This document shows, one piece after another, positions 3,795 through 53,254 of a stretch of DNA of 55,374 nucleotides; position 1 is the first letter of the stretch; every line of letters starts with the position of its first letter. The translations under genes were made by a program, and so were the position numbers. Origin of the DNA: a virus; the IMG/VR virus record IMGVR_UViG_3300005529_001081, positions 1-55,374 of that record. One strand, given 5' to 3'. The notes under the pieces are model-generated. The model made no database searches and was not told the DNA's origin. It saw only the letters and a list, made by a program, of their open reading frames with translations.

Positions 3795-4096
3795 GCTGAG
3801 ACCTTTCCGGTGCGGAGTCCCGCCTCATGCGCGATGTGCTTTTGGGCGAGTTTCCGGATTTCTAGAATCCGCTCGGCCACGCCGCACAGGTACCGCAGAT
3901 TCACTTTGCCCTTCCGAATTTCCTCGAGGCTCATGAAGTGCGGCAGGATCGCGTCCGCGGTTCCATCCCATTGCGGCCGGGATACTTCGACGTAGCGCTC
4001 GAGCAGCGCGGCGAGCTCTTCGTCGAGGCAGAAAGCCGCGAACAGCGAGATCCGCTCCTGGATCATCAGCGTTTCGGCTTCGGTGAGCTTCTTCAT
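3791..4096 (-). CDS. Hypothetical phage protein (101 aa)
   Basis: A helical 101-residue protein (MKKLTEAETLMIQERISLFA, then DEELAALLERYVEVSRPQWDG). No family recognised. It overlaps the ATPase gene upstream and the HNH gene downstream by 4 bases each, so it may act with them in DNA processing; that link rests on position only. Confidence 0.65.
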   Translation of the reverse strand: MKKLTEAETLMIQERISLFAAFCLDEELAALLERYVEVSRPQWDGTADAILPHFMSLEEIRKGKVNLRYLCGVAERILEIRKLAQKHIAHEAGLRTGKVSA

Positions 4097-5811
4097 CCGA
4101 ACAGCTCCGGAGCGGCGCGCACGCCGCCTTTTTCGGCGATCACCAGCTGGCGGGCGGCCAGGCGCTGAATGTAGGTATCGCGCGAGGACCGCTGGTATTC
4201 AGACAGCTCGCCGATGGTGTCGCGATCGACGAGCTCGCCTTGGGCGTCCGCCAGGATCTCGAGAATTCGCTTTTCCCCAGCCGGCAATCGATCGAGCCAA
4301 TGGGCCAGCAATTCGGATCCGGTGGGCAGCGGCTCGAAATCTCCCAGAGCGGCGATGCCCTCCTCGGTCGGCCGCGGGTCCGCGGACAGATCCACAAATC
4401 CTTTTGCAGCCAACCGCTGCAGATATGTATCGCGCGAGCTGCGCTTATAGCCGGTCAGAACGGTCAGCTGCGGCTTGGTGACCTGCCCGTGCTGCGCTAC
4501 CGCGGCGAGAATCTTGCGCTCGCCGGCCGGCAGCTCGGCTGTACCTTCGGAGCTATTACCAACCCGTATATTACGAGTTCGGGAAGGGGCGGGAGCCGCA
4601 GGCCTGGCCGGCCCCGGCTTGATGGGCGTACCTGTGCTTCGCTCGGGCCGTTGGCTCGCGCGCTGATACGCGGCCGCAGAGCGCGCGTTCGCGACCGCGT
4701 GCAGAATTTCCCGGCCGATGGTCTCGAGCCGCGCGAGCGCTTCCTCGGAGACCACCTGGACCTCGACCGGCTTCTCGATGATCTTCTCTATCGGAGTCTG
4801 CGGCCTGCGCTCGAGCTCGGCCTTGAGCCGCGCGGCCTCCTTCTGCGCATCGGCCAGCTTGCGGCGCAGCTCGCGCGGATCTTCAGCCTTCGCTTTCTCA
4901 ATGGTCTCGGCGAGGCGCTGCTCCAGGCGCGCCAAGTCGACCGCAGCCAGTTTCCGCGGCGCCGCGCGCGTGCCCCCGACCTCGGGAGTTGCCGAGGAGT
5001 CAAATGTTTCGAGCTTCCGGACCTTAACGCACTGAAACAGGTCAAGCCAGGCCGGGCTCCAGAACCAGGCTTTCTCGACCGCGAGCGATGCGAGCGAATT
5101 CATCATCAGCGCCTGCTTCTCCGGTGTCCCGTGCACTTTCACCCAGGCCTCGATCGCCGCGCGGTCCTGCGGCGCGATCGTGCGCTTGGCAATCAGCACT
5201 TCGATCTGCGTGAGCAGATCCTTGTTGATCGATGCCGACCGCTGCGTAATCATCGTGACCCCGATCCCGCGGGCCCGCCCTCGGCGAACCAGGTCTTCCA
5301 TCGCGCCCAGGAGTCGCGGGGCGAGATTCCCTACCGGCCGCTGCGGCGCCCAGGCGTCGGCCTCATCGATGAACAGGTGGAGTGCTTCGCGATTCAAACG
5401 GTAGAGCGATTCGGCGAAGCCGATCATGAACTGCGTCTGCTCGCCCTTGCGGAAGCGCGAGAGATCGATCACCACCGAAATCTTTTCTTCGACCAGGAAG
5501 CGCGCGATCTCCTCGCCGGCTTTCTCGGTTGCCTGGAGCGGCAGGTCGCCATAATCGCCGCCGAGAACGGTGATCGGCAGCCCAGGAGATTTGCCGGAAG
5601 CCGCCAGGCGCAGGCCCCACCAGTTGCCGATCGGATCCACAGCGCAGACGTGCGCATTGGCGCCGAGCATCTCCTCAGCCAGTACTTTGGCGGTGTAGGA
5701 TTTTCCGCCGCCGCGCTTCCCCAGAATCCCGAAGGTCTGCGTGACCGCCTCGAGCGGCAGAGTTAAGTCCGAAGCGATTTGTAGGGCATTCGGCGCCGCT
5801 GCCGGCATCAC
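4093..5811 (-). CDS. HerA-like P-loop ATPase with two C-terminal winged-helix repeats
   Basis: A 572-residue protein. Walker A is GKRGGGKSYT (residues about 31-40) and Walker B is LHLFIDEADAW (about 142-152), followed by RG-ARGIGVTMITQR, the sensor/arginine region typical of HerA/FtsK-like DNA translocases. Residues about 300-360 form a coiled coil (ARLEQRLAETIEKAKAED). The C-terminus has two tandem winged-helix-like repeats, each with A-GE--IL--- and Y-RSSRDTY-QRLAA. The family pumps DNA or assists end processing, usually with NurA, which is not present here. The start is GTG at 5811 followed at once by ATG. It could support replication, packaging-independent DNA handling or segregation. Confidence 0.8.
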   Translation of the reverse strand: MMPAAAPNALQIASDLTLPLEAVTQTFGILGKRGGGKSYTAKVLAEEMLGANAHVCAVDPIGNWWGLRLAASGKSPGLPITVLGGDYGDLPLQATEKAGEEIARFLVEEKISVVIDLSRFRKGEQTQFMIGFAESLYRLNREALHLFIDEADAWAPQRPVGNLAPRLLGAMEDLVRRGRARGIGVTMITQRSASINKDLLTQIEVLIAKRTIAPQDRAAIEAWVKVHGTPEKQALMMNSLASLAVEKAWFWSPAWLDLFQCVKVRKLETFDSSATPEVGGTRAAPRKLAAVDLARLEQRLAETIEKAKAEDPRELRRKLADAQKEAARLKAELERRPQTPIEKIIEKPVEVQVVSEEALARLETIGREILHAVANARSAAAYQRASQRPERSTGTPIKPGPARPAAPAPSRTRNIRVGNSSEGTAELPAGERKILAAVAQHGQVTKPQLTVLTGYKRSSRDTYLQRLAAKGFVDLSADPRPTEEGIAALGDFEPLPTGSELLAHWLDRLPAGEKRILEILADAQGELVDRDTIGELSEYQRSSRDTYIQRLAARQLVIAEKGGVRAAPELFG

Positions 5812-6376: not shown

Positions 6377-6618
6377 CGGGCGGATCGAACCTTTCTGGAT
6401 CCGGCAGATGCGATCGCCTTGGCCTGTGGCTTCCTGAGAAGCTGTAATTGCCGCGCGCGTGCGCCACGGGCGAGGGCGCTTTTTTGGGCTGATTCGTTAT
6501 CAAGAGCGGCGACCGCAAGGCGCTGTGTTTCGGCGGGAGGACCTGCGAAATAGCGCTCAAAAGTCAGGTCGTCGACTTCGCCGCGCTCGCCGTTTTCGAA
6601 TGTGACCGCGATCTGCAT
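6373..6618 (-). CDS. Hypothetical phage protein (81 aa)
   Basis: MQIAVTFENGERGEVDDLTFERYFAG suggests a small beta-sheet N-terminus followed by a basic alanine-rich helix. No family recognised. Part of the overlapping leftward operon. Confidence 0.55.
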   Translation of the reverse strand: MQIAVTFENGERGEVDDLTFERYFAGPPAETQRLAVAALDNESAQKSALARGARARQLQLLRKPQAKAIASAGSRKVRSAR

Positions 6619-7776: not shown

Positions 7777-8915
7777 GACCCCTCTTCCACGATGAACTCC
7801 ACGCGCTGCACGCCGATCCCGAGATGGACAGCGGCGGCACGGATCTGGCCCGTGAATATTTCGCGGATATAATCCGCGGTCACTTGCTGCGGAACGCGAA
7901 TTGTTAGCACTGCACGCTCGTGCGAGCTGAAGGCGGTTTGCAGCAACCAGTTGCTGTATTCGGTCTCCGAAACCATTCGCTTCAGTTCGGCGCGGATTCG
8001 TGACCAGGGGCTCGACGAATCCTCCGGCTCAGCTTTGAAATTCTTCTTCTCTGCCGTAGCTTCCTGCTTCGGAGAAGGCGAAAGCACTTGCACCGCGGCG
8101 GCATATCCGTCGCGCGCCTCTTTCGCCAGCTTCGGGAAAAGGCCGCTTTGAACGCTGTGCCGGTCACGCCGGACGCGATTTCGTACGACCCCCATGAAAT
8201 GTTCAATGGGAGTCGGCCCCAGCTCGGCGGCGACGTCGTTGAGTAGCTTCTCATCAGGGACTTTGCCGAGGCCAAGATGGACGAACACCGGCGTCAAGGC
8301 TTCCCTGAGCTTCGGAACCAACACCGATACTGGAGTATCGGGGGTGGCCTTTAACCTGATGGAAACACTCAGACCATCGTCAGATATGGACTCGCTTACC
8401 CGAACCGATTCAGGAGCGTCGTATGTCACCGGAAGCTCGCCGCGCTCGACGATCGAACGAGGCAGCGAAACAACTACCGGAGCGGATGGCGTCCGCGACT
8501 TGTATTCCTGGCGGTCTAACGTCTTGGGCTCGAGCTTCGGAGCGGAGCGAAATTTTTCCACCAGAGCACGATACTCAAGACTGCGGCCCACGTCTCCGCG
8601 GGATTGGATAAGACCCAGCTCGTCCTCGAGCTGCCCGAGCGCCTTACGAACGCCGATGGCCGAAGCCGCGCACTCCTCCGCCAGCTCTGTGATCTCAAGC
8701 CTGGCCCAGTCTTGGTGTCCATCCGGAGATCCCCAGGTGTTCCGGAGAATAATCCCGACGATTTTGTAAGGAAGTCCGTCCAACCGCGCAGGAAGGAAAT
8801 CGAAATAATCGTTGGGTATCGAGGACCATCCGCCGCGAACCTTTGGGGATCTGCCACCGTTTTCGGAGCCGGCCTGCACGACGGATTTGCGCGCGGGAGC
8901 TGGTGCGGCGGCCAT
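7773..8915 (-). CDS. Putative replication initiator with DnaA-domain-I-like C-terminus
   Basis: A 380-residue protein; the start at 8915 forms a TAATG overlap with the upstream gene. Residues about 30-130 (IPNDYFDFLPARLDGLPYKIVGIILRNTWG then RLEITELAEECAASAIGVRKAL) look like the winged-helix N-terminus of phage replication proteins. The last 75 residues, W--I-AELKRMVSETEYSNWL ... LTIRVPQQVTADYIREIF, match DnaA domain I, the part that binds helicase or helicase loader. The AAA+ and DNA-binding domains of DnaA are absent. It would recruit the host helicase to the phage origin. A GATACTGGAGTATC palindrome lies inside the gene at 8326-8339. Confidence 0.7.
   Translation of the reverse strand: MAAAPAPARKSVVQAGSENGGRSPKVRGGWSSIPNDYFDFLPARLDGLPYKIVGIILRNTWGSPDGHQDWARLEITELAEECAASAIGVRKALGQLEDELGLIQSRGDVGRSLEYRALVEKFRSAPKLEPKTLDRQEYKSRTPSAPVVVSLPRSIVERGELPVTYDAPESVRVSESISDDGLSVSIRLKATPDTPVSVLVPKLREALTPVFVHLGLGKVPDEKLLNDVAAELGPTPIEHFMGVVRNRVRRDRHSVQSGLFPKLAKEARDGYAAAVQVLSPSPKQEATAEKKNFKAEPEDSSSPWSRIRAELKRMVSETEYSNWLLQTAFSSHERAVLTIRVPQQVTADYIREIFTGQIRAAAVHLGIGVQRVEFIVEEGS
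8326..8343. repeat. Copy of the GATACTGGAGTATC palindrome inside the replication gene
   Basis: GATACTGGAGTATCGGGG here is identical over 18 bases to the copy starting at 11385. On the coding strand it encodes Asp-Thr-Pro-Val-Ser. Phage origins often lie within the initiator gene, so this may be a binding site of the protein or of a regulator that acts at both places. Confidence 0.6.
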
Positions 8916-9897: not shown

Positions 9898-10154
9898 GCG
9901 GCGACGTCTCCCTCCGGACGCACCGTCATTTCCCAGATGACCAGCTCGACCTCTTCGCGGCGCAGCTCGTACATGCGCGCCAGGTCTTTTTCCGGAACGC
10001 CGCGCGTGAAATCGCGATACAACCGCCGTTTGTTGTCGTGCAGCATGTTTACGAACGGGCGGATGCGAAGCCGAGCCATCGCCGGTTTCTTCCGAACGAG
10101 TTGCGGGCCCGCGGATCCGGGAACTGCGCTGCTAGGCGGTACGTTTGAGTTCAT
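9894..10154 (-). CDS. Small helix-turn-helix-like protein
   Basis: The second half (KRRLYRDFTRGVPEKDLARMYELRREEVELVIW) reads as a compact helix-turn-helix. The first 25 residues are proline-rich and may be untranslated: an internal ATG at 10079 with GGAAG 9 bases upstream would give a 61-residue protein (MARLRIRPF) and leave a normal gap. The long form overlaps the upstream gene by 23 bases. It may be a repressor or activator of this operon; DNA-binding role is inferred. Confidence 0.55.
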   Translation of the reverse strand: MNSNVPPSSAVPGSAGPQLVRKKPAMARLRIRPFVNMLHDNKRRLYRDFTRGVPEKDLARMYELRREEVELVIWEMTVRPEGDVAA

Positions 10155-10377
10155 CGGATTTTTGAGCTTCCAGTTCTAGGAGAGTTCTGGCTTTTGCGAG
10201 ACACGCCGCCGCAATGCGCGCAGATTTGGATTTTCCGTTCAGATACAGCCACACGGCCGTATCGCTGACGGGCGGATCAAGACCCTTGGCGATTTCACGA
10301 AACGAACCCGAATGCCGCTTGAGGATCTCGCGAACCTCTACCCGGCTTAGTTCCTTCGGTTGCGCTTGGCTGGCCAT
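10132..10377 (-). CDS. Cro/repressor-like HTH protein, first gene of leftward operon
   Basis: The 81-residue product has VREILKRHSGSFREIAKGLDPPVSDTAVWLYLNGKSKSARIAAACLAKA, a helix-turn-helix of the lambda-repressor/YdaS-like type with the recognition helix around S-D-T-A-V-W-L. It is the first gene after the leftward promoter at 10415-10442 and could bind the CTAG-containing operators beside it, acting as Cro or as the lysogeny repressor. No ribosome binding site is visible; the mRNA leader would be about 30 bases. Confidence 0.65.
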   Translation of the reverse strand: MASQAQPKELSRVEVREILKRHSGSFREIAKGLDPPVSDTAVWLYLNGKSKSARIAAACLAKARTLLELEAQKSDELKRTA

Positions 10378-10385
10378 GGCGTTAA

Positions 10386-10400
10386 AACTTAAAGCAAGTT
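10386..10400. promoter_or_regulatory. Inverted repeat in leader of leftward operon
   Basis: AACTT-AAAGC-AAGTT, a short dyad just before the first leftward gene. It falls between the predicted transcription start and the ATG, so it could be a regulator site or a weak RNA hairpin. Confidence 0.35.
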
Positions 10401-10412
10401 AAAGACAAGGAG

Positions 10413-10442
10413 ATGATATACCCTAGTGTCCTAGGAAGTCAA
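10413..10442 (-). promoter_or_regulatory. Leftward promoter overlapping operator
   Basis: Read on the minus strand: TTGACT (10442-10437), 16 bases, TATATC (10420-10415); an alternative -10, TATCAT, gives an 18-base spacer. The spacer contains the palindrome CCTAG-TGTC-CTAGG (10422-10435), so a protein bound there would block RNA polymerase. It would drive the whole leftward operon. Confidence 0.65.
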
Positions 10443-10474
10443 CAGGCATCACTGCTTGATACCTAGGTTGCTAG
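10422..10474. promoter_or_regulatory. Pair of inverted CTAG-N3-CCTAGG operators
   Basis: CTAGTGTCCTAGG at 10423-10435 and, on the opposite strand, CTAGCAACCTAGG at 10474-10462 share CTAG-N3-CCTAGG in inverted orientation, centres about 39 bases apart. They sit between two divergent genes encoding small DNA-binding proteins (10132-10377 and 10491-10808). This is the layout of a lambda-like immunity switch. CTAG is usually rare in bacterial DNA, so four CTAG sites in 53 bases stand out. Confidence 0.6.
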
Positions 10475-10490
10475 TGTAACCCGTTGATTC

Positions 10491-10808
10491 ATGGCCGAAA
10501 AAACTTTTGGCATTGACCTCGAAGAATCGCTCCACGAGCAGGCGAAGAAGCTCGCAATCGACCGCAAGGTGCCTGTGAAGCGGCTTTACGCCGAAGCCAT
10601 CGCAGCGCTTCTGGCCGCGCGCGCACCACACGTGCCAGAGAAACCGCGACCGGTGTCGCCCTTCGACCGTTGGCACAGGATGCTAGATGAGATCCTGGAA
10701 TCGGGCGATCGGGAAGCTATTTCCGCAGTCGAGCAGAATATCGTGGTCTTTCACCGCATCGTCGGAACAAGGACTACGACTGCGACGCTAAAGCGAAAGA
10801 GCCGCTGA
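10491..10808 (+). CDS. Ribbon-helix-helix-like regulator
   Basis: Residues 5-45 (TFGIDLEESLHEQAKKLAIDRKVPVKRLYAEAIAALL) have the beta-strand plus two-helix pattern of the Arc/MetJ ribbon-helix-helix fold. The C-terminal half (FDRWHRMLDEILESGDREAISAVEQNIVVFHRIV) is a separate helical segment. It starts 17 bases after the second CTAG operator and has no ribosome binding site, so it may be leaderless. Likely partner or rival of the HTH protein across the control region. Confidence 0.6.
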   Translation: MAEKTFGIDLEESLHEQAKKLAIDRKVPVKRLYAEAIAALLAARAPHVPEKPRPVSPFDRWHRMLDEILESGDREAISAVEQNIVVFHRIVGTRTTTATLKRKSR

Positions 10809-11384: not shown

Positions 11385-11445
11385 GATACTGGAGTATCGG
11401 GGTCACACTGATACTCCAGTATCGAAAAAGCGGTACCCGAGTATC
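11385..11445. repeat. Array of three GATACTGGAGTATC-type palindromes
   Basis: Copy 1 at 11385-11398 is GATACTGGAGTATC; copy 2 at 11410-11423 is its exact inverse GATACTCCAGTATC; copy 3 at 11432-11445, GGTACCCGAGTATC, matches 11 of 14 positions. Centres are 25 and 22 bases apart. A further exact copy is at 8326 in the replication gene. The spacing of about two helical turns suggests iterons or operators. An AT-rich stretch (TTAAATATTAA, about 11460) and a hairpin (ACTTCT/AGAAGT, 11484-11500) follow, as in many origins. Confidence 0.7.
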
Positions 11446-11576
11446 GGCCTTTCGAGCGATTAAATATTAAGGAAGAACACAACACTTCTACGAGAGAAGT
11501 ATTAGTGGGTGAGTGCGAGCGGCGCCGGGAAACCACCCACCCACATCCGGTATTCCAGGAGACGCAAAGGTAAAGA
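11446..11576. other. Origin-like or terminator-like spacer between convergent genes
   Basis: This gap holds an AT-rich core near 11460-11470, the hairpin ACTTCT-ACGAG-AGAAGT (11484-11500), and a second possible stem between GTGGGTG (11505-11511) and two CACCCAC copies (11534-11544). It separates the rightward gene ending at 11355 from the leftward recombinase ending at 11577, so transcription ends here from both sides. It may combine termination with an origin or partition site. Confidence 0.4.
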
Positions 11577-12308: not shown

Positions 12309-13052
12309 TCAGCCCCGGGCGGCAGTGCGCCGGCTCCGAGAGGGCTTCTCCCCGGCACCCAGGCCGGGTAGGGTACTCCCGGCGGCAGCTACCTTGGAAG
12401 CGATCAGGCGCTCCACGCGCTGCTGCTGGAGGTCGGGATAGTCCTGGTAGCCGAAATCGCCCGCGGCTCGTTTAAGCGCGCGCATCGCGGCCGTGATCTC
12501 CGATTCAGACGCTGCCTGTTCGTCGGTCCTGAACTCGTCGAGCGATCGCAGCTCATGGGAGAAGAAAAGCGTGTGAGCCACGATCCCCAATTTCCCGGCC
12601 CGGAAGATCATTGGACGCTCGCGGGAATAGAGCCTCATCAGCGCTATGCCCGCAAGCGACGTCCTACGGAGCGCACCGAAAAGAGCCGCGTAAGGTAGCT
12701 CGTCTTGCGCGGGCGCCACGTAGTAGGACGATTCAAACTGGGTCGGATCCATCTGCTCGAGCGGCACGAAACGAAGCTCGATCGAGTCGCCTGCGGCCGG
12801 AGCCAGGCTCTCGATTTCTTCTTCGGTGAGAGTAGCGAACTTGCCTTTCTCGTATTCGTAGCCTTTCACCAGCTCGGTGCGAGCGATCGGCTTGTCCTCG
12901 CCCTGGCAGTACAAGACCTGCTTCACGCGGGACAGGTCTGTGGCGTGGAGCTGATTGAAAGACGGATTCTCTCCCCGCGCTCCCGTCAGAATCCTGACTG
13001 CGACCGATCGGCCGCCGTAGACCAGTTGTCCCTTCCAGACCGGTGTGCCCAT
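12309..13052 (-). CDS. ku: Ku protein (non-homologous end joining)
   Basis: The 247-residue product matches bacterial Ku over its length: WKGQLVYGGRSVAVRI at the N-terminus, the core VKGYEYEKGKFATLTEEEIESLAP, DPTQFESSYYVAP and the beta-barrel end ERPMIFRAGKLGIVAHTLFF. The size is typical of bacterial Ku; the last 30 residues are basic. Ku homodimers ring DNA ends and recruit ligase LigD, which is not encoded here and would come from the host. A few actinobacteriophages carry Ku and use it for genome circularisation. AAAGG is about 7 bases before the ATG. Opposite in direction to the late operon, it is probably expressed early or in lysogeny. Confidence 0.93.
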   Translation of the reverse strand: MGTPVWKGQLVYGGRSVAVRILTGARGENPSFNQLHATDLSRVKQVLYCQGEDKPIARTELVKGYEYEKGKFATLTEEEIESLAPAAGDSIELRFVPLEQMDPTQFESSYYVAPAQDELPYAALFGALRRTSLAGIALMRLYSRERPMIFRAGKLGIVAHTLFFSHELRSLDEFRTDEQAASESEITAAMRALKRAAGDFGYQDYPDLQQQRVERLIASKVAAAGSTLPGLGAGEKPSRSRRTAARG

Positions 13053-13360: not shown

Positions 13361-13918
13361 TTGGAATCCTCAACGTCGGCGCCAATCGGCCTGAGGCTAT
13401 GGCCGTTCTTCGTTCAAGCCAGCAAGAACAACCCACCGGACACGGATCCGTATCCGGCGCAATCGCGGGCGTGGACGGCCGACCAGGCGCGCGCATTGGC
13501 TTCGCGCAGCTGCTCAGGCTGCTGCGGATCCGGCCTTCGCGCCATCGCTGGCGACATCACTCCATGCGGCTGCGTTCTGCGCCGCATTTTCAATCATTGC
13601 TTTTCTCGTTACCTCGAGTGCATCGAACGGCCGCGCCGATTCGGGCCCAAGAACGAGGACTTCATATCCGATTTTGAGCTCGTTGGACTGCGTGCGCTCA
13701 GCAACGACAAGGAGCGGCAGCTTTTCCGGCTCATTTTCATTTCCGGCGTGGATCATCGGAGGAGCGCCGAGATTCTGGGCCTGGATAACGCCAGGTTCCG
13801 CGGGTGCCTTCGCCGGGTGCAAGAAAAAGCCGGGCGAGCCTTCCGCGAAATCAGACCATACGCTCTGTATCCCACCGGTTCGTATTTTCAGGCGCCCACG
13901 CGGAGGCCCGCGGCCTGA
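13361..13918 (+). CDS. Zinc-finger plus sigma-region-4-like regulator
   Basis: A 185-residue protein starting at TTG with GGGAG 5 bases upstream. Its middle has CSGCCGSGLRAIAGDITPCGCVLRRIF, a CxxCxGxG...CxC cluster found in a family of phage regulators. The C-terminal half, RALSNDKERQLFRLIFISGVDHRRSAEILGLDNARFRGCLRRVQEKAGRAF, matches the helix-turn-helix of sigma-70 region 4. Such proteins sit at the start of late operons in many siphoviruses and probably act as transcription activators or antiterminators. Its stop overlaps the next ATG (TGATG). Confidence 0.65.
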   Translation: MESSTSAPIGLRLWPFFVQASKNNPPDTDPYPAQSRAWTADQARALASRSCSGCCGSGLRAIAGDITPCGCVLRRIFNHCFSRYLECIERPRRFGPKNEDFISDFELVGLRALSNDKERQLFRLIFISGVDHRRSAEILGLDNARFRGCLRRVQEKAGRAFREIRPYALYPTGSYFQAPTRRPAA

Positions 13919-14256
13919 TGATTTGGCCGACGCAAGGCCAGTGGCCCTGGCCCTCCCCTCCGCCGTCGCCGTTCGACGTAATCGCGCGGCAAGAGCGGCT
14001 TGAGCTCATAGAGCTCTGCCTGATCGAGATAGGCCGCAAGCACGCCTCGGTTCTCCGGATGCGGTACTTCCGTGATCTGTCGTTCAAGGACATGGCTCGG
14101 GCGTTGGCGACATCTGAGGATGCCGTCGGGCAGATGCACGGGCGAGTCCTTGCAAGAGTGCGCGAGCTGCTGCAGACAGCCGGCCGCGAAGAAGGCCGTC
14201 TGGCTCTCAATCGCCCAGGCCATCGCGGCGTGAAACGAATCAAGGACGTCCTCTGA
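13918..14256 (+). CDS. Sigma-70 region-4-like DNA-binding protein
   Basis: The ATG at 13918 overlaps the previous stop and has GGAGG 11 bases upstream; an earlier in-frame start would lie inside the preceding gene. The 112-residue product has ERLELIELCLIEIGRKHASVLRMRYFRDLSFKDMARALATSEDAVGQMHGRVLARVRELL, a sigma region-4 helix-turn-helix. Region 2 is missing, so it cannot be a complete sigma factor. It may work with the preceding protein as an activator of the late genes. Confidence 0.65.
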   Translation: MIWPTQGQWPWPSPPPSPFDVIARQERLELIELCLIEIGRKHASVLRMRYFRDLSFKDMARALATSEDAVGQMHGRVLARVRELLQTAGREEGRLALNRPGHRGVKRIKDVL

Positions 14257-14260
14257 GCCA

Positions 14261-15013
14261 ATGCAAATCTTCGAGGTCAGCTGTCGAAAAAACGACGGCT
14301 GGCTGGGATCCCTGTTTGTGGGCGAATTGCGTTTCAGTTCGCTCGCGGGTCGTCCGATCGACCGTCAGGAATTCCTCGACCAGATCGCGGGCAAACGCGT
14401 GCTCAACGCCGCCCACGGGTACCATAACAAGGAATCCCAAGCCGACCATTTCGCCGAGACTGTCGCGGCGCGGATCGAGGAGGCGCAGCTCGGTTACGAC
14501 GCCCTTGTTCTGTTCTCCTGGTCCGGCGGCCTCACATACGCCGGATTCGGAATGGCAGTCGCGCGAACGAAGGCCTGCGGGCGGCGGCTGGCGGACCTTA
14601 TAGCCCTCGAGGGCGGCGCCGGCGCTCACGTCGACTGCGTCAGCCACTCTTTGGGAGCCGAAGTCAGCACCTATGCGCTGCAGAAATCCAGATCGGTCGG
14701 CCGATGGATCGCGCTCGCAGCGGCTATCTCCGACACGAGCCTAGGTCCCGGGCAGCAGTTCGACGCCAACGGGCTTGGAGTGGGCCGCGTTCTTGTGACT
14801 CACAGCGAACGCGATGAAGTGCTCCAATGGGCCTACCCGATCGGCTCTGGGCTCAAAGCAGCCCTCGGTCTGCACGGCCCGCGCATCGGCCAGTCCGCAG
14901 CCAAAGTTTCGGCTAGGAACGTCTCCGAATTCGTGTCGAGCCACAGTGAAGCCTATTCGGCGCCGAGAGTCTACGAGATCTGGGCCCAGTGGATGAAGGG
15001 CGATAAATGCTAG
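14261..15013 (+). CDS. Alpha/beta-hydrolase-fold protein
   Basis: The 250-residue product has a nucleophile-elbow motif VDCVSHSLGAEV near residue 130 (S-x-S-x-G form), preceded by beta strands (YDALVLFSWSG), and followed by VLVTHSERDEVL (probable acid) and a C-terminal SSHSEAY (possible histidine). The fold is that of DUF900-type or lipase-like serine hydrolases. In a phage it could be an esterase that attacks cell-envelope lipids, like LysB, or a virion component. No signal peptide is present. It follows the regulators by 4 bases. Confidence 0.55.
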   Translation: MQIFEVSCRKNDGWLGSLFVGELRFSSLAGRPIDRQEFLDQIAGKRVLNAAHGYHNKESQADHFAETVAARIEEAQLGYDALVLFSWSGGLTYAGFGMAVARTKACGRRLADLIALEGGAGAHVDCVSHSLGAEVSTYALQKSRSVGRWIALAAAISDTSLGPGQQFDANGLGVGRVLVTHSERDEVLQWAYPIGSGLKAALGLHGPRIGQSAAKVSARNVSEFVSSHSEAYSAPRVYEIWAQWMKGDKC

Positions 15014-16191: not shown

Positions 16192-16926
16192 GTGCAATCA
16201 AAAGTCAGAAAGCGAAATCGCCTGGCCGAAGAACACCTCTGGCTGGCGACATCCATCGCGAATCAGATCTCGGAAACGCTTCCCGTCCACGTGGATTTCG
16301 ATGACTTGCGCCAAGCCGGTCTACTCGGCCTACTGGATGCCGCGGACAGGTATTCGCCCGATCGCGGCGTGAAGTTCTCCAGCTTTGCGAAGTTCCGGAT
16401 CCGTGGGGCGATTCTTGACTACCTCAGGGACCTGGATTGGGCGAGCCGGGACATGCGGCGCCAGCAGAAAGAACTGGCCTCGGTATACAACGACCTCGCC
16501 AACCGCCTCCAGCGCGAACCGGACCTGGCCGAACTCGCGGGGGAGTTAGGGATCGATGTGGAAAAGCTCGGCCAGAGAATCAAGGCGAGTATGCTCGAGC
16601 ACGGTCTGGTCTCCGCATCTTTCCGCACTGGCGGCGACGGGGACGACCTTCCGCCTTCCGATTTTGCGGCGCCTGGCGCGACCAGGCCCGACTCCGTGGC
16701 CTCTCAAAACGAACTTCGGGGATTCCTGGACAAGGCGTTGAACACGCTTCCAGAACGGTATCGCAGAGTCATTTCTCTCTATCACTTTCGTGAGCTCACG
16801 ATGCGCCAGGTCGGGGATGTTCTAGGCGTCAATGAAAGCCGGGTCTCGCAGATGCACCAAATAGCGCTCAAGCGAATGCGAGCAGTCCTCCTGGAAGAGG
16901 GCATTCCTTCCGCGCAGGCTTTCTAA
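16192..16926 (+). CDS. Phage RNA polymerase sigma factor (FliA/WhiG-like)
   Basis: A 244-residue complete sigma factor starting at GTG. Region 2 spans about residues 10-80 (DDLRQAGLLGLLDAADRYSPDRGVKFSSFAKFRIRGAILDYLRDLDW), region 3 about 85-135 (LQREPDLAELAGELGI) and region 4 about 185-235 (LPERYRRVISLYHFRELTMRQVGDVLGVNESRVSQMHQIALKRM). Overall it is sigma-28 type. Placed directly before the terminase genes, it probably directs host RNA polymerase to late promoters. Confidence 0.88.
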   Translation: MQSKVRKRNRLAEEHLWLATSIANQISETLPVHVDFDDLRQAGLLGLLDAADRYSPDRGVKFSSFAKFRIRGAILDYLRDLDWASRDMRRQQKELASVYNDLANRLQREPDLAELAGELGIDVEKLGQRIKASMLEHGLVSASFRTGGDGDDLPPSDFAAPGATRPDSVASQNELRGFLDKALNTLPERYRRVISLYHFRELTMRQVGDVLGVNESRVSQMHQIALKRMRAVLLEEGIPSAQAF

Positions 16927-16933
16927 GCGACCG

Positions 16934-17386
16934 GTGGCTTCGAACAAGCACGCGCCTCTCGGACTCCGGGCAGCGGCTAGCAAACTCAAAATCAGCCACG
17001 TCGCGCTGCTGAAGGCGGTCGAGTCGGGCAGGATTAAGCGGCGTGAGGATGGCAAATTCGACCTGGAAGCCTGTCGGCGAGAGCTGGCAGCCAACAGCAA
17101 TCCGAAGAAACAGAAATCGGCCCGCGCGCAGCAGCACAAGAAGCCGCTCAGTCCGGATGACACCTACAACGAGCTCTGCCGGCGCCGCGAAGCCGTAAAG
17201 CTTGAGAAGGATGAGTTAGACCTGGCGCGTAAGAAGGGCGAGTTGGTTCCGATCGGCGAGGTAAACGCATTCATTTCCGGAATGATCATTCGGGCGCGCG
17301 ATCGCTTGCTCGCAATCGAATGCGATGAGCGCACCGGCCACGAAATACGCGGCGCTCTCCGAGACCTCGCTCAGTACGTGGGCTAG
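16934..17386 (+). CDS. Terminase small subunit
   Basis: A 150-residue protein starting at GTG. The first 50 residues (LRAAASKLKISHVALLKAVESGRIKRREDGKFDLEACRRELA) are a winged/HTH domain like lambda Nu1. A coiled-coil middle (YNELCRRREAVKLEKDELDLARKKGELVPIGEV) and a C-terminal helix follow, the usual build of small terminases in this family. It recognises the packaging site and hands DNA to the large subunit, whose start overlaps it by 62 bases. Confidence 0.8.
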   Translation: MASNKHAPLGLRAAASKLKISHVALLKAVESGRIKRREDGKFDLEACRRELAANSNPKKQKSARAQQHKKPLSPDDTYNELCRRREAVKLEKDELDLARKKGELVPIGEVNAFISGMIIRARDRLLAIECDERTGHEIRGALRDLAQYVG

Positions 17387-52061: not shown

Positions 52062-52682
52062 ATGAAACGATTACTATCGAGCCTCATCGTGCTGGCGAGC
52101 TGCTGCGTTGCTCAGACCACTGACACGCCCCTTACTCTCGACGCCTCCGGCATGGCCAAGTACTGCACGGTAGGCGGACTGCCGGCGCCCGTTTACACCT
52201 CGGCTCAGCAGGCCGACATGGATGCCTTCGCGGCTCCTTTCAACAACCTGATCTACGGCCAGCGGATCACGTGCGCGATTCCCGTGTCGTGCACCGTTTG
52301 TGACGTCATTCTCGGCTTCGTAGAGAACCGCGGCGGACCCGGCGACACGCCAATCGCGGCCGGCGGGCGCGTATTCACGGTGAGCTTTAACGGGACCGTC
52401 TCAGACCCGATCGATTTGGCGAAGCTCGCGGGCGCCCGGAACCCGTGGCAGAAGTCCTGGAAGGTAGCCGGGTTCGATGGCCTGCTACGCATCAATTTTC
52501 AGACCCTTATTCCTGGAATGAACGCGATCGCGAGCTCGGCGCGCATCTCGAATGCAGTTATGCCGTCCAACCCGGTGATGATCATGCCGATCCCGATCTT
52601 GCCCAACTGCCTTGCGCCGATCGCGTGCATTTACGACGTCAGCTCCAACCGTTGGACCTTCACGATTACGACGGCTCAGTAG
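52062..52682 (+). CDS. Secreted malectin-like protein (206 aa)
   Basis: The ATG at 52062 gives a signal peptide (KRLLSSLIVLASCCVAQ). The mature middle (VILGFVENRGGPGDTPIAAGGRVFTVSFNGTVSDPIDLAKLAGARNPWQKSWKVAGFDGLLRINF) resembles a malectin-type carbohydrate-binding beta sandwich (R-F-x-V-x-x-N-G ... D-G-x-L-x-I-x-F). Several cysteines fit periplasmic disulfides. Probably a lysogen-expressed cargo protein; the fold assignment is moderate. Confidence 0.55.
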   Translation: MKRLLSSLIVLASCCVAQTTDTPLTLDASGMAKYCTVGGLPAPVYTSAQQADMDAFAAPFNNLIYGQRITCAIPVSCTVCDVILGFVENRGGPGDTPIAAGGRVFTVSFNGTVSDPIDLAKLAGARNPWQKSWKVAGFDGLLRINFQTLIPGMNAIASSARISNAVMPSNPVMIMPIPILPNCLAPIACIYDVSSNRWTFTITTAQ

Positions 52683-53254
52683 AGCGATAGCTCGCGTTCC
52701 AGGGCGCCGCACGAGAGCCTCTGGCCGAACCTCCGGAGGCGCTCTAGAGCCCGCCTTTTGGCCGCCGCAGCCTCGGCCTCGCTCAGATCAAGGCGTTCTG
52801 CGGCCGTCCCCAGGGTCAGTCCATCCAGAAACACGAGGCGAAGGACAGCTCGCTCCTTCTCCGAGAGCAGGCCCAGAGCGCGGCGGGCGATTTGCTGATC
52901 CGAGGACAGAATCGCCGAGTCCTCCGGACTCGGAAAGTTTCCTGCCGGCGTAAAGTCGAGCCTTGCGTGTTTGGCCTCCCGGAAAGGCCGTCGCTTGATC
53001 GAATCGATCATGGCCGCCCGGATCCGGAATTTGGCCCAGATCTCGAATGGGACGCCGCGGCCAGGGTCGTAGGAGCGCGCGAGCTTAACCAGCGCAAGCC
53101 TGCCGGCGCCGACGAGGTCTTCAGTCTCAATCGATGCCGGCAGCCTGCGCCGCAAAGAATCTGCGATCGGGCGCACAAGTGCGAGCCCGCGCTCCACCCA
53201 GTCGGCCGCGGTGTCCAACCCTTGAATTTTCGCGGCAGACGTTGAAAGTGGCAA
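52676..53254 (-). CDS. Second sigma-70 family protein
   Basis: A 192-residue protein on the minus strand from a TTG start. Region 2 is clear (IETEDLVGAGRLALVKLARSYDPGRGVPFEIWAKFRIRAAMIDSIKRRP) and so is region 4 (LLSEKERAVLRLVFLDGLTLGTAAERLDLSEAEAAAAKRRALERLRR). Region 3 is short, so it is nearer to ECF-like or minimal FliA-type factors. With the sigma factor at 16192 this is the second in the genome. Being leftward and next to the lysogeny side, it may act earlier than the other. Confidence 0.8.
   Translation of the reverse strand: MPLSTSAAKIQGLDTAADWVERGLALVRPIADSLRRRLPASIETEDLVGAGRLALVKLARSYDPGRGVPFEIWAKFRIRAAMIDSIKRRPFREAKHARLDFTPAGNFPSPEDSAILSSDQQIARRALGLLSEKERAVLRLVFLDGLTLGTAAERLDLSEAEAAAAKRRALERLRRFGQRLSCGALERELSLY

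Follow-up and report, generated by a model that had tools for sequence, protein, structure and literature searches.

The locus considered here raises the question of what a small group of palindromes does between two convergent genes of a virus, and what it means that the same sequence recurs inside a putative replication initiator gene. It lies in IMG/VR virus record IMGVR_UViG_3300005529_001081, the 55,374 bases of which were analysed as one stretch, referred to below as the window. A sequence-only reading had described two exact 14-bp copies in inverted order, a third copy matching at 11 of 14 positions and an 18-base exact match inside the putative initiator gene, and had offered three functions: a phage origin, a partition site, or operators of a regulator. 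The repeats were recovered as described (Table 1), with start-to-start spacings of 25 and 22 bp in the array and the 18-mer GATACTGGAGTATCGGGG common to the sites at 8326 and 11385. Among the three functions, origin iterons are clearly favoured by comparative evidence. From the sequences compared here, we consider it very probable that the palindromes are iterons bound by the phage's own lambda-O-like initiator and that the intergenic array is the likely origin.

Palindromes and their surroundings in the window

That such a pair should arise by chance had been judged improbable, and simulation bears this out. The 14-mer has 11 matches at three or fewer mismatches on both strands of the window versus a mean of 2.27 in dinucleotide shuffles (0 of 100 shuffles reach 11), and a near-palindromic 14-mer pair within 100 bp, identical outside its centre, appeared in one of 300 windows simulated under a Markov model. 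Outside the array and the in-gene site, merely two further places in the window match the 14-mer within three mismatches. A database search with the array as a paired pattern gave no match elsewhere. The exact 15-mer GATACTGGAGTATCG was tried as a marker and abandoned, because its 50 loci in viral contigs are near chance expectation and none has a second nearby exact-type cluster.

Table 1. Positions of the palindromes, adjoining elements and associated genes in the window
Feature	Position	Strand	Remarks
Candidate iteron 1	11385..11398	+	exact GATACTGGAGTATC
Candidate iteron 2	11410..11423	-	exact GATACTGGAGTATC, reverse orientation
Candidate iteron 3	11432..11445	+	degenerate 11/14 copy, GGTACCCGAGTATC
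In-gene candidate iteron	8326..8339	+	exact GATACTGGAGTATC, codon ~192 of 380 of the initiator
Predicted replication initiator, 380 aa	7773..8915	-	winged helix at residues ~35-117; DnaA_N (PF11638) near C terminus
AT-rich, pyrimidine-asymmetric tract; candidate unwinding element	11446..11504	.	holds the AT maximum of the surrounding 0.9 kb
CA/GT-rich element with imperfect hairpin GTGGGTGAGTG / CACCCACCCAC	11505..11544	.	counterpart of a TACCTACMCAC-like element next to the relatives' arrays
Small tyrosine recombinase/integrase, 199 aa	11577..12176	-	syntenic neighbour of the array; not taken as binder

The AT-rich patch and the hairpins that had been noticed after the array are both real. 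A scan of the surrounding 0.9 kb places the AT maximum (70% over 40 bp) directly beside the array, and the hairpins lie between the integrase stop (11577) and the end (11355) of a weakly supported 87-aa plus-strand ORF on the other flank. A GC-skew minimum had also been expected near 11.4 kb; the cumulative skew does have a minimum, in the 13-14 kb bin and hence about 2 kb off, where it is confounded by a switch in gene direction.

Several other genes of the window were noted. A Ku70/80-domain protein (PF02735, E 2.5e-26; 12309-13052, minus strand) adjoins the integrase, and an ORF resembling a complete alternative sigma factor (16192-16926, plus strand) is located near a terminase-like gene at 17325, with further sigma-like ORFs, matched in several relatives, at 13361-13918 and 52676-53254. 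A HerA/DUF87-type ATPase with a terminase-like PHROG match occupies 4093-5811 on the minus strand, and is also found near the initiator in the relative G001 (37% identity).

The initiator gene and recurrence of the layout

The product of the gene that harbours the in-gene copy is predicted to be a replication initiator. Its DnaA_N match (E 1.4e-8) is over the Pfam cut-off, a GntR-type helix-turn-helix match in Pfam is weak, as is the match to the 'O-like' PHROG 391 (E 0.014), and RepA_N (PF06970) is absent among its Pfam matches at E<=0.1. A structure model is confident solely for the winged helix (residues 35-117), with low confidence in the C-terminal part; its best viral fold match is the N-terminal part of lambda GpO (E 3.3e-6), and its PDB fold matches include, at weak E-values, the plasmid Rep initiators 4pt7 (named as an initiator) and 5kbj (named as a Rep-DNA complex). 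Searches by tblastn with the initiators gave no match among known phages and, among plasmids, none beyond a DnaA_N-domain match in Caulobacter.

Relatives were collected by similarity to the integrase or the initiator and without using the motif, so that the sharing of an initiator among them is partly by construction. The comparison set, partly gathered by the same genes, consists of six cases (the window and five relatives) with small alignments. The layout of an array plus in-gene copies recurs in all five relatives with motif letters that differ between phages, and in six of six phages or prophages it is an initiator with a DNA-binding domain that is linked to the repeats and carries copies in its gene. 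The window has three array copies and one in-gene copy of GATACTGGAGTATC. L004, with an integrase 58% identical and a winged helix 36% identical to those of the window, has CACTGGAGTG / ACACTGGAGTGT-type palindromes in a 3+2 arrangement, with a cluster at 6445-6516 and two inside its own winged-helix initiator. L058/G003 carries GGGTCTGCAGACCC-type palindromes, three beyond the integrase and two in the initiator gene, and these five are the sole matches at two or fewer mismatches in the full 47.9-kb record. G002, a Bryobacterales metagenome-assembled genome (MAG), has three copies of CACACTGGTGTGTG at an exact 23-bp period plus one or two in the initiator gene. G001, a Bryobacteraceae MAG, has CCACAGCGGGCTGTGG-type repeats beyond the integrase and one copy matching at 13 of 16 positions in the initiator gene. 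Finally, G115, which was found by its initiator alone and whose integrase is a different, full-length one, has in the middle of the initiator gene a 16-bp palindrome that is perfect (central CC aside), CCCAACTCCAGTTGGG, and an array of two degenerate copies 23 bp apart beside an AT tract and a TACCTAC-CACC element. Counting the motif in relatives, as the earlier reading had proposed, thus found it neither frequent in the host nor missing from the relatives: in the 4.2-Mb G002 MAG, the four matches to CACACTGGTGTGTG at one or no mismatch are the three array copies and one in the initiator gene. The hosts of the relatives are Acidobacteriota, and from these relatives alone we infer a host for the window.

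Two observations were made alongside this comparison. L058 has a second, full-length integrase-like ORF (13672-14946, plus strand) next to its small recombinase. A remote winged-helix initiator in G510 (L097:5704-6003, minus strand) contains two in-gene direct repeats, TTTGAGGGGTCAAA, with a 15-bp period, in the manner of a lambda-like in-gene origin; a second array was not found within the 16 kb examined.

The intergenic modules of all six cases share a common anatomy, consisting of a CA-rich element, a pyrimidine/AT tract and then two or three palindromes about 22-34 bp apart. Spacing within an array is regular (22-25 bp for the three copies of the window, exactly 23 bp in L057), and the AT maximum of about 1 kb adjoins the array in four of the six (the window, L057, L004 and L077), the adjoining tract not being the maximum in L056 and L058. 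L058 and L077 have nearly the same 22 bp, CAATAAGGATGCGSRGGCCGAA, at the border between AT tract and array. Within the initiator genes, one or two copies are found at 0.47-0.58 of the gene length in each of the six, at a distance of 0.7-5 kb from the array across the group. The DNA around these in-gene sites is locally AT-rich (Fisher combined p 7e-5), the individual values being below 0.1 in four of six and not significant in L058 (0.34) and L076 (0.24). In L058, the two in-gene copies are 97% identical and are read in two different frames; therefore DNA, not peptide, is conserved there, an argument that comes from one relative.

Binding, start site and the attachment site

The initiator is the DNA-binding protein that accompanies every array. 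L004 and L075 share the half-site CACACT, and their initiators are 55% identical and nearly alike in the recognition helix. The integrase of the window is closest to that of L058 (61%), yet the L058 motif is the most different. Motif letters thus track the DNA-binding domain of the initiator rather than the integrase. Since half-sites follow the initiator, and since L060, L061 and L062, which have related integrases, show neither a clear initiator of this type nor, in a palindrome scan, an array, the predicted binding by the initiator is supported. A pair at 5398/5422 in L060 was discounted as a tandem duplication, apparently within coding sequence.

Were the palindromes operators of a phage repressor or regulator, the in-gene copy could act as a roadblock that keeps replication off in the lysogen. 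Dyads of 14 bp at 22-25 bp intervals do recall regions with three operators, of which lambda OR is an example, the arrays of L004 and L057 are followed by promoter-like sequence, and the window has an HTH-like ORF (10132-10377, judged from sequence) and an Arc-like gene (10491-10808) nearby. However, the divergent intergenic region between these two regulators (10378-10490) contains zero copies of the motif, and the array sits between convergent genes; neither regulator is matched in the relatives (E 1e-5), although all six have the initiator, and in the L058 record and the G002 MAG every site belongs to either the array or the initiator gene. We therefore regard operators as improbable. A parS-like partition centromere, as might be guessed from a short array of palindromes in a phage that is possibly plasmid-like, is scarcely credible, as ParA (PF13614) was not found in the window, G003 or G004, ParB_N was not found in the window, and the ParB_N domains in G003 and G004 lie nowhere near the arrays.

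For palindromes acting as iterons, one can propose by analogy with lambda and Stx O, SPP1 gp38, pSK41 Rep and PLE RepA that a dimer of the initiator's winged-helix domain binds them as double-stranded sites, that the iteron-bound initiator would then melt the adjoining AT tract, and that it would recruit the host replicative helicase, which the DnaA-domain-I-like C terminus of the window initiator could contact directly. This contact step is drawn from established knowledge of DnaA domain I. The in-gene iterons would form a second or accessory initiator-binding cluster, being either a second origin, on the model of SPP1 oriL/oriR, or a handcuffing/autoregulatory site. With its larger number of iterons and stronger AT tract, the intergenic module is the favoured start site; the in-gene cluster could itself be the origin or a second one. 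It could also be that the initiator sites serve mainly in autoregulation or copy control through handcuffing and that the true origin is elsewhere, for example only in the gene as in lambda. The in-gene sites are indeed placed where the lambda and pSK41 origins sit, and upstream of the initiator in L004 and L057 there is promoter-like sequence with the array in front of it. Set against this is the fuller origin anatomy of the intergenic array, with its more numerous copies, its stronger AT tract (the maximum in four of six) and its conserved CA element, and we rate a mainly regulatory array as possible but rather unlikely. An intergenic origin built on iterons is thus retained as the preferred reading, with several points that weigh against it: there is a single in-gene copy in the window, versus four or more in lambda, the GC-skew minimum, itself confounded, is displaced by about 2 kb, and degeneracy affects both the array of G115 and the third copy of the window.

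The location of the array 130-190 bp past the integrase stop in the window could also indicate that the neighbouring tyrosine recombinase has its attP or arm sites here. This is most improbable, since the palindromes occur inside the initiator gene too, the G115 array accompanies the different integrase, and the att cores common to relatives (TATGTATTATCGGCG..., ATAATATCTGTTATCGGAA) sit between array and initiator. In G002, one contig runs from host genes to the initiator and another from the integrase through the array to host genes, with TATGTATTATCGGCGTTTT at both junctions, and the corresponding prophage ends of G001 have ATAATATCTGTTATCGGAA in common; in both MAGs the end contigs are not physically linked. 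Because of these matching cores, it seems that the integrated prophage has the array at one end and the initiator at the other, and that excision brings the two together. Near the array and initiator of the window, the att core of the relatives was not found. Tentatively, then, the origin may be split across attP, with the array and promoter-like sequence at one prophage end and the initiator with its in-gene iterons at the other, so that excision and circularisation would reassemble the origin, join the initiator to a promoter and thereby gate replication; as the contigs are unlinked and no such core was found in the window, we put this forward as a hypothesis for the group. The att-like cores at L075:7777, L057:3504, L004:6879, L076:8554 and L056:11704 (approximate positions) have a dif-like look, CATAA-6-TTATCGG, and the small recombinases of 199-242 aa may use an Xer-like site. 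Two of the prophages adjoin a HAD-family hydrolase gene.

Significance and relation to known replicons

Acidobacteriota are a soil phylum whose viruses are, to our knowledge, poorly known, and our literature search, which may have missed some work, found no earlier description of the origin of this phage group. The present analysis names a concrete candidate origin, and an initiator to go with it, in a group of temperate phages with relatives among Bryobacterales (Acidobacteriota) prophages. The natural pairs of an initiator winged-helix domain and divergent iterons offer material on the evolution of initiator specificity, and the attP-split arrangement, if true, would tie prophage replication directly to excision.

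The in-gene sites have a close parallel in the O protein of lambda and Stx phages, whose gene has iterons at its middle, next to an AT-rich tract (PMC7466680). An N-terminal winged-helix initiator, mid-gene inverted-repeat iterons and an AT-rich tract are found in both systems. Here, however, there are one or two in-gene iterons versus four or more in lambda, an extra intergenic array of two or three iterons with its own AT tract is present 0.7-5 kb away, and the C-terminal domains differ, that of the window initiator being DnaA_N. In the Bacillus phage SPP1, whose initiator is gp38, oriL lies within gene 38 and oriR between genes (PMC6316719); this initiator, too, has one in-gene and one intergenic binding region, both of them containing repeats and AT-rich DNA. 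The two SPP1 origins are separated by about 13 kb and built on direct repeats, in contrast to the elements described here, which are palindromes and lie about 1.3-5 kb from each other in the phage records. Among plasmid-type initiators, the RepA_N protein Rep of pSK41 has its ori centrally in rep, in the linker region (PMC5703833), and RepA of the Vibrio PLE uses a noncoding iteron array (PMC7145576). Both bind semi-palindromic iterons as winged-helix dimers, as is predicted here. The window initiator differs in not being detected as RepA_N by Pfam and its relatives in having Acidobacteriota as hosts, and the phages of this group, unlike either of these replicons, have in-gene and noncoding sites both present.
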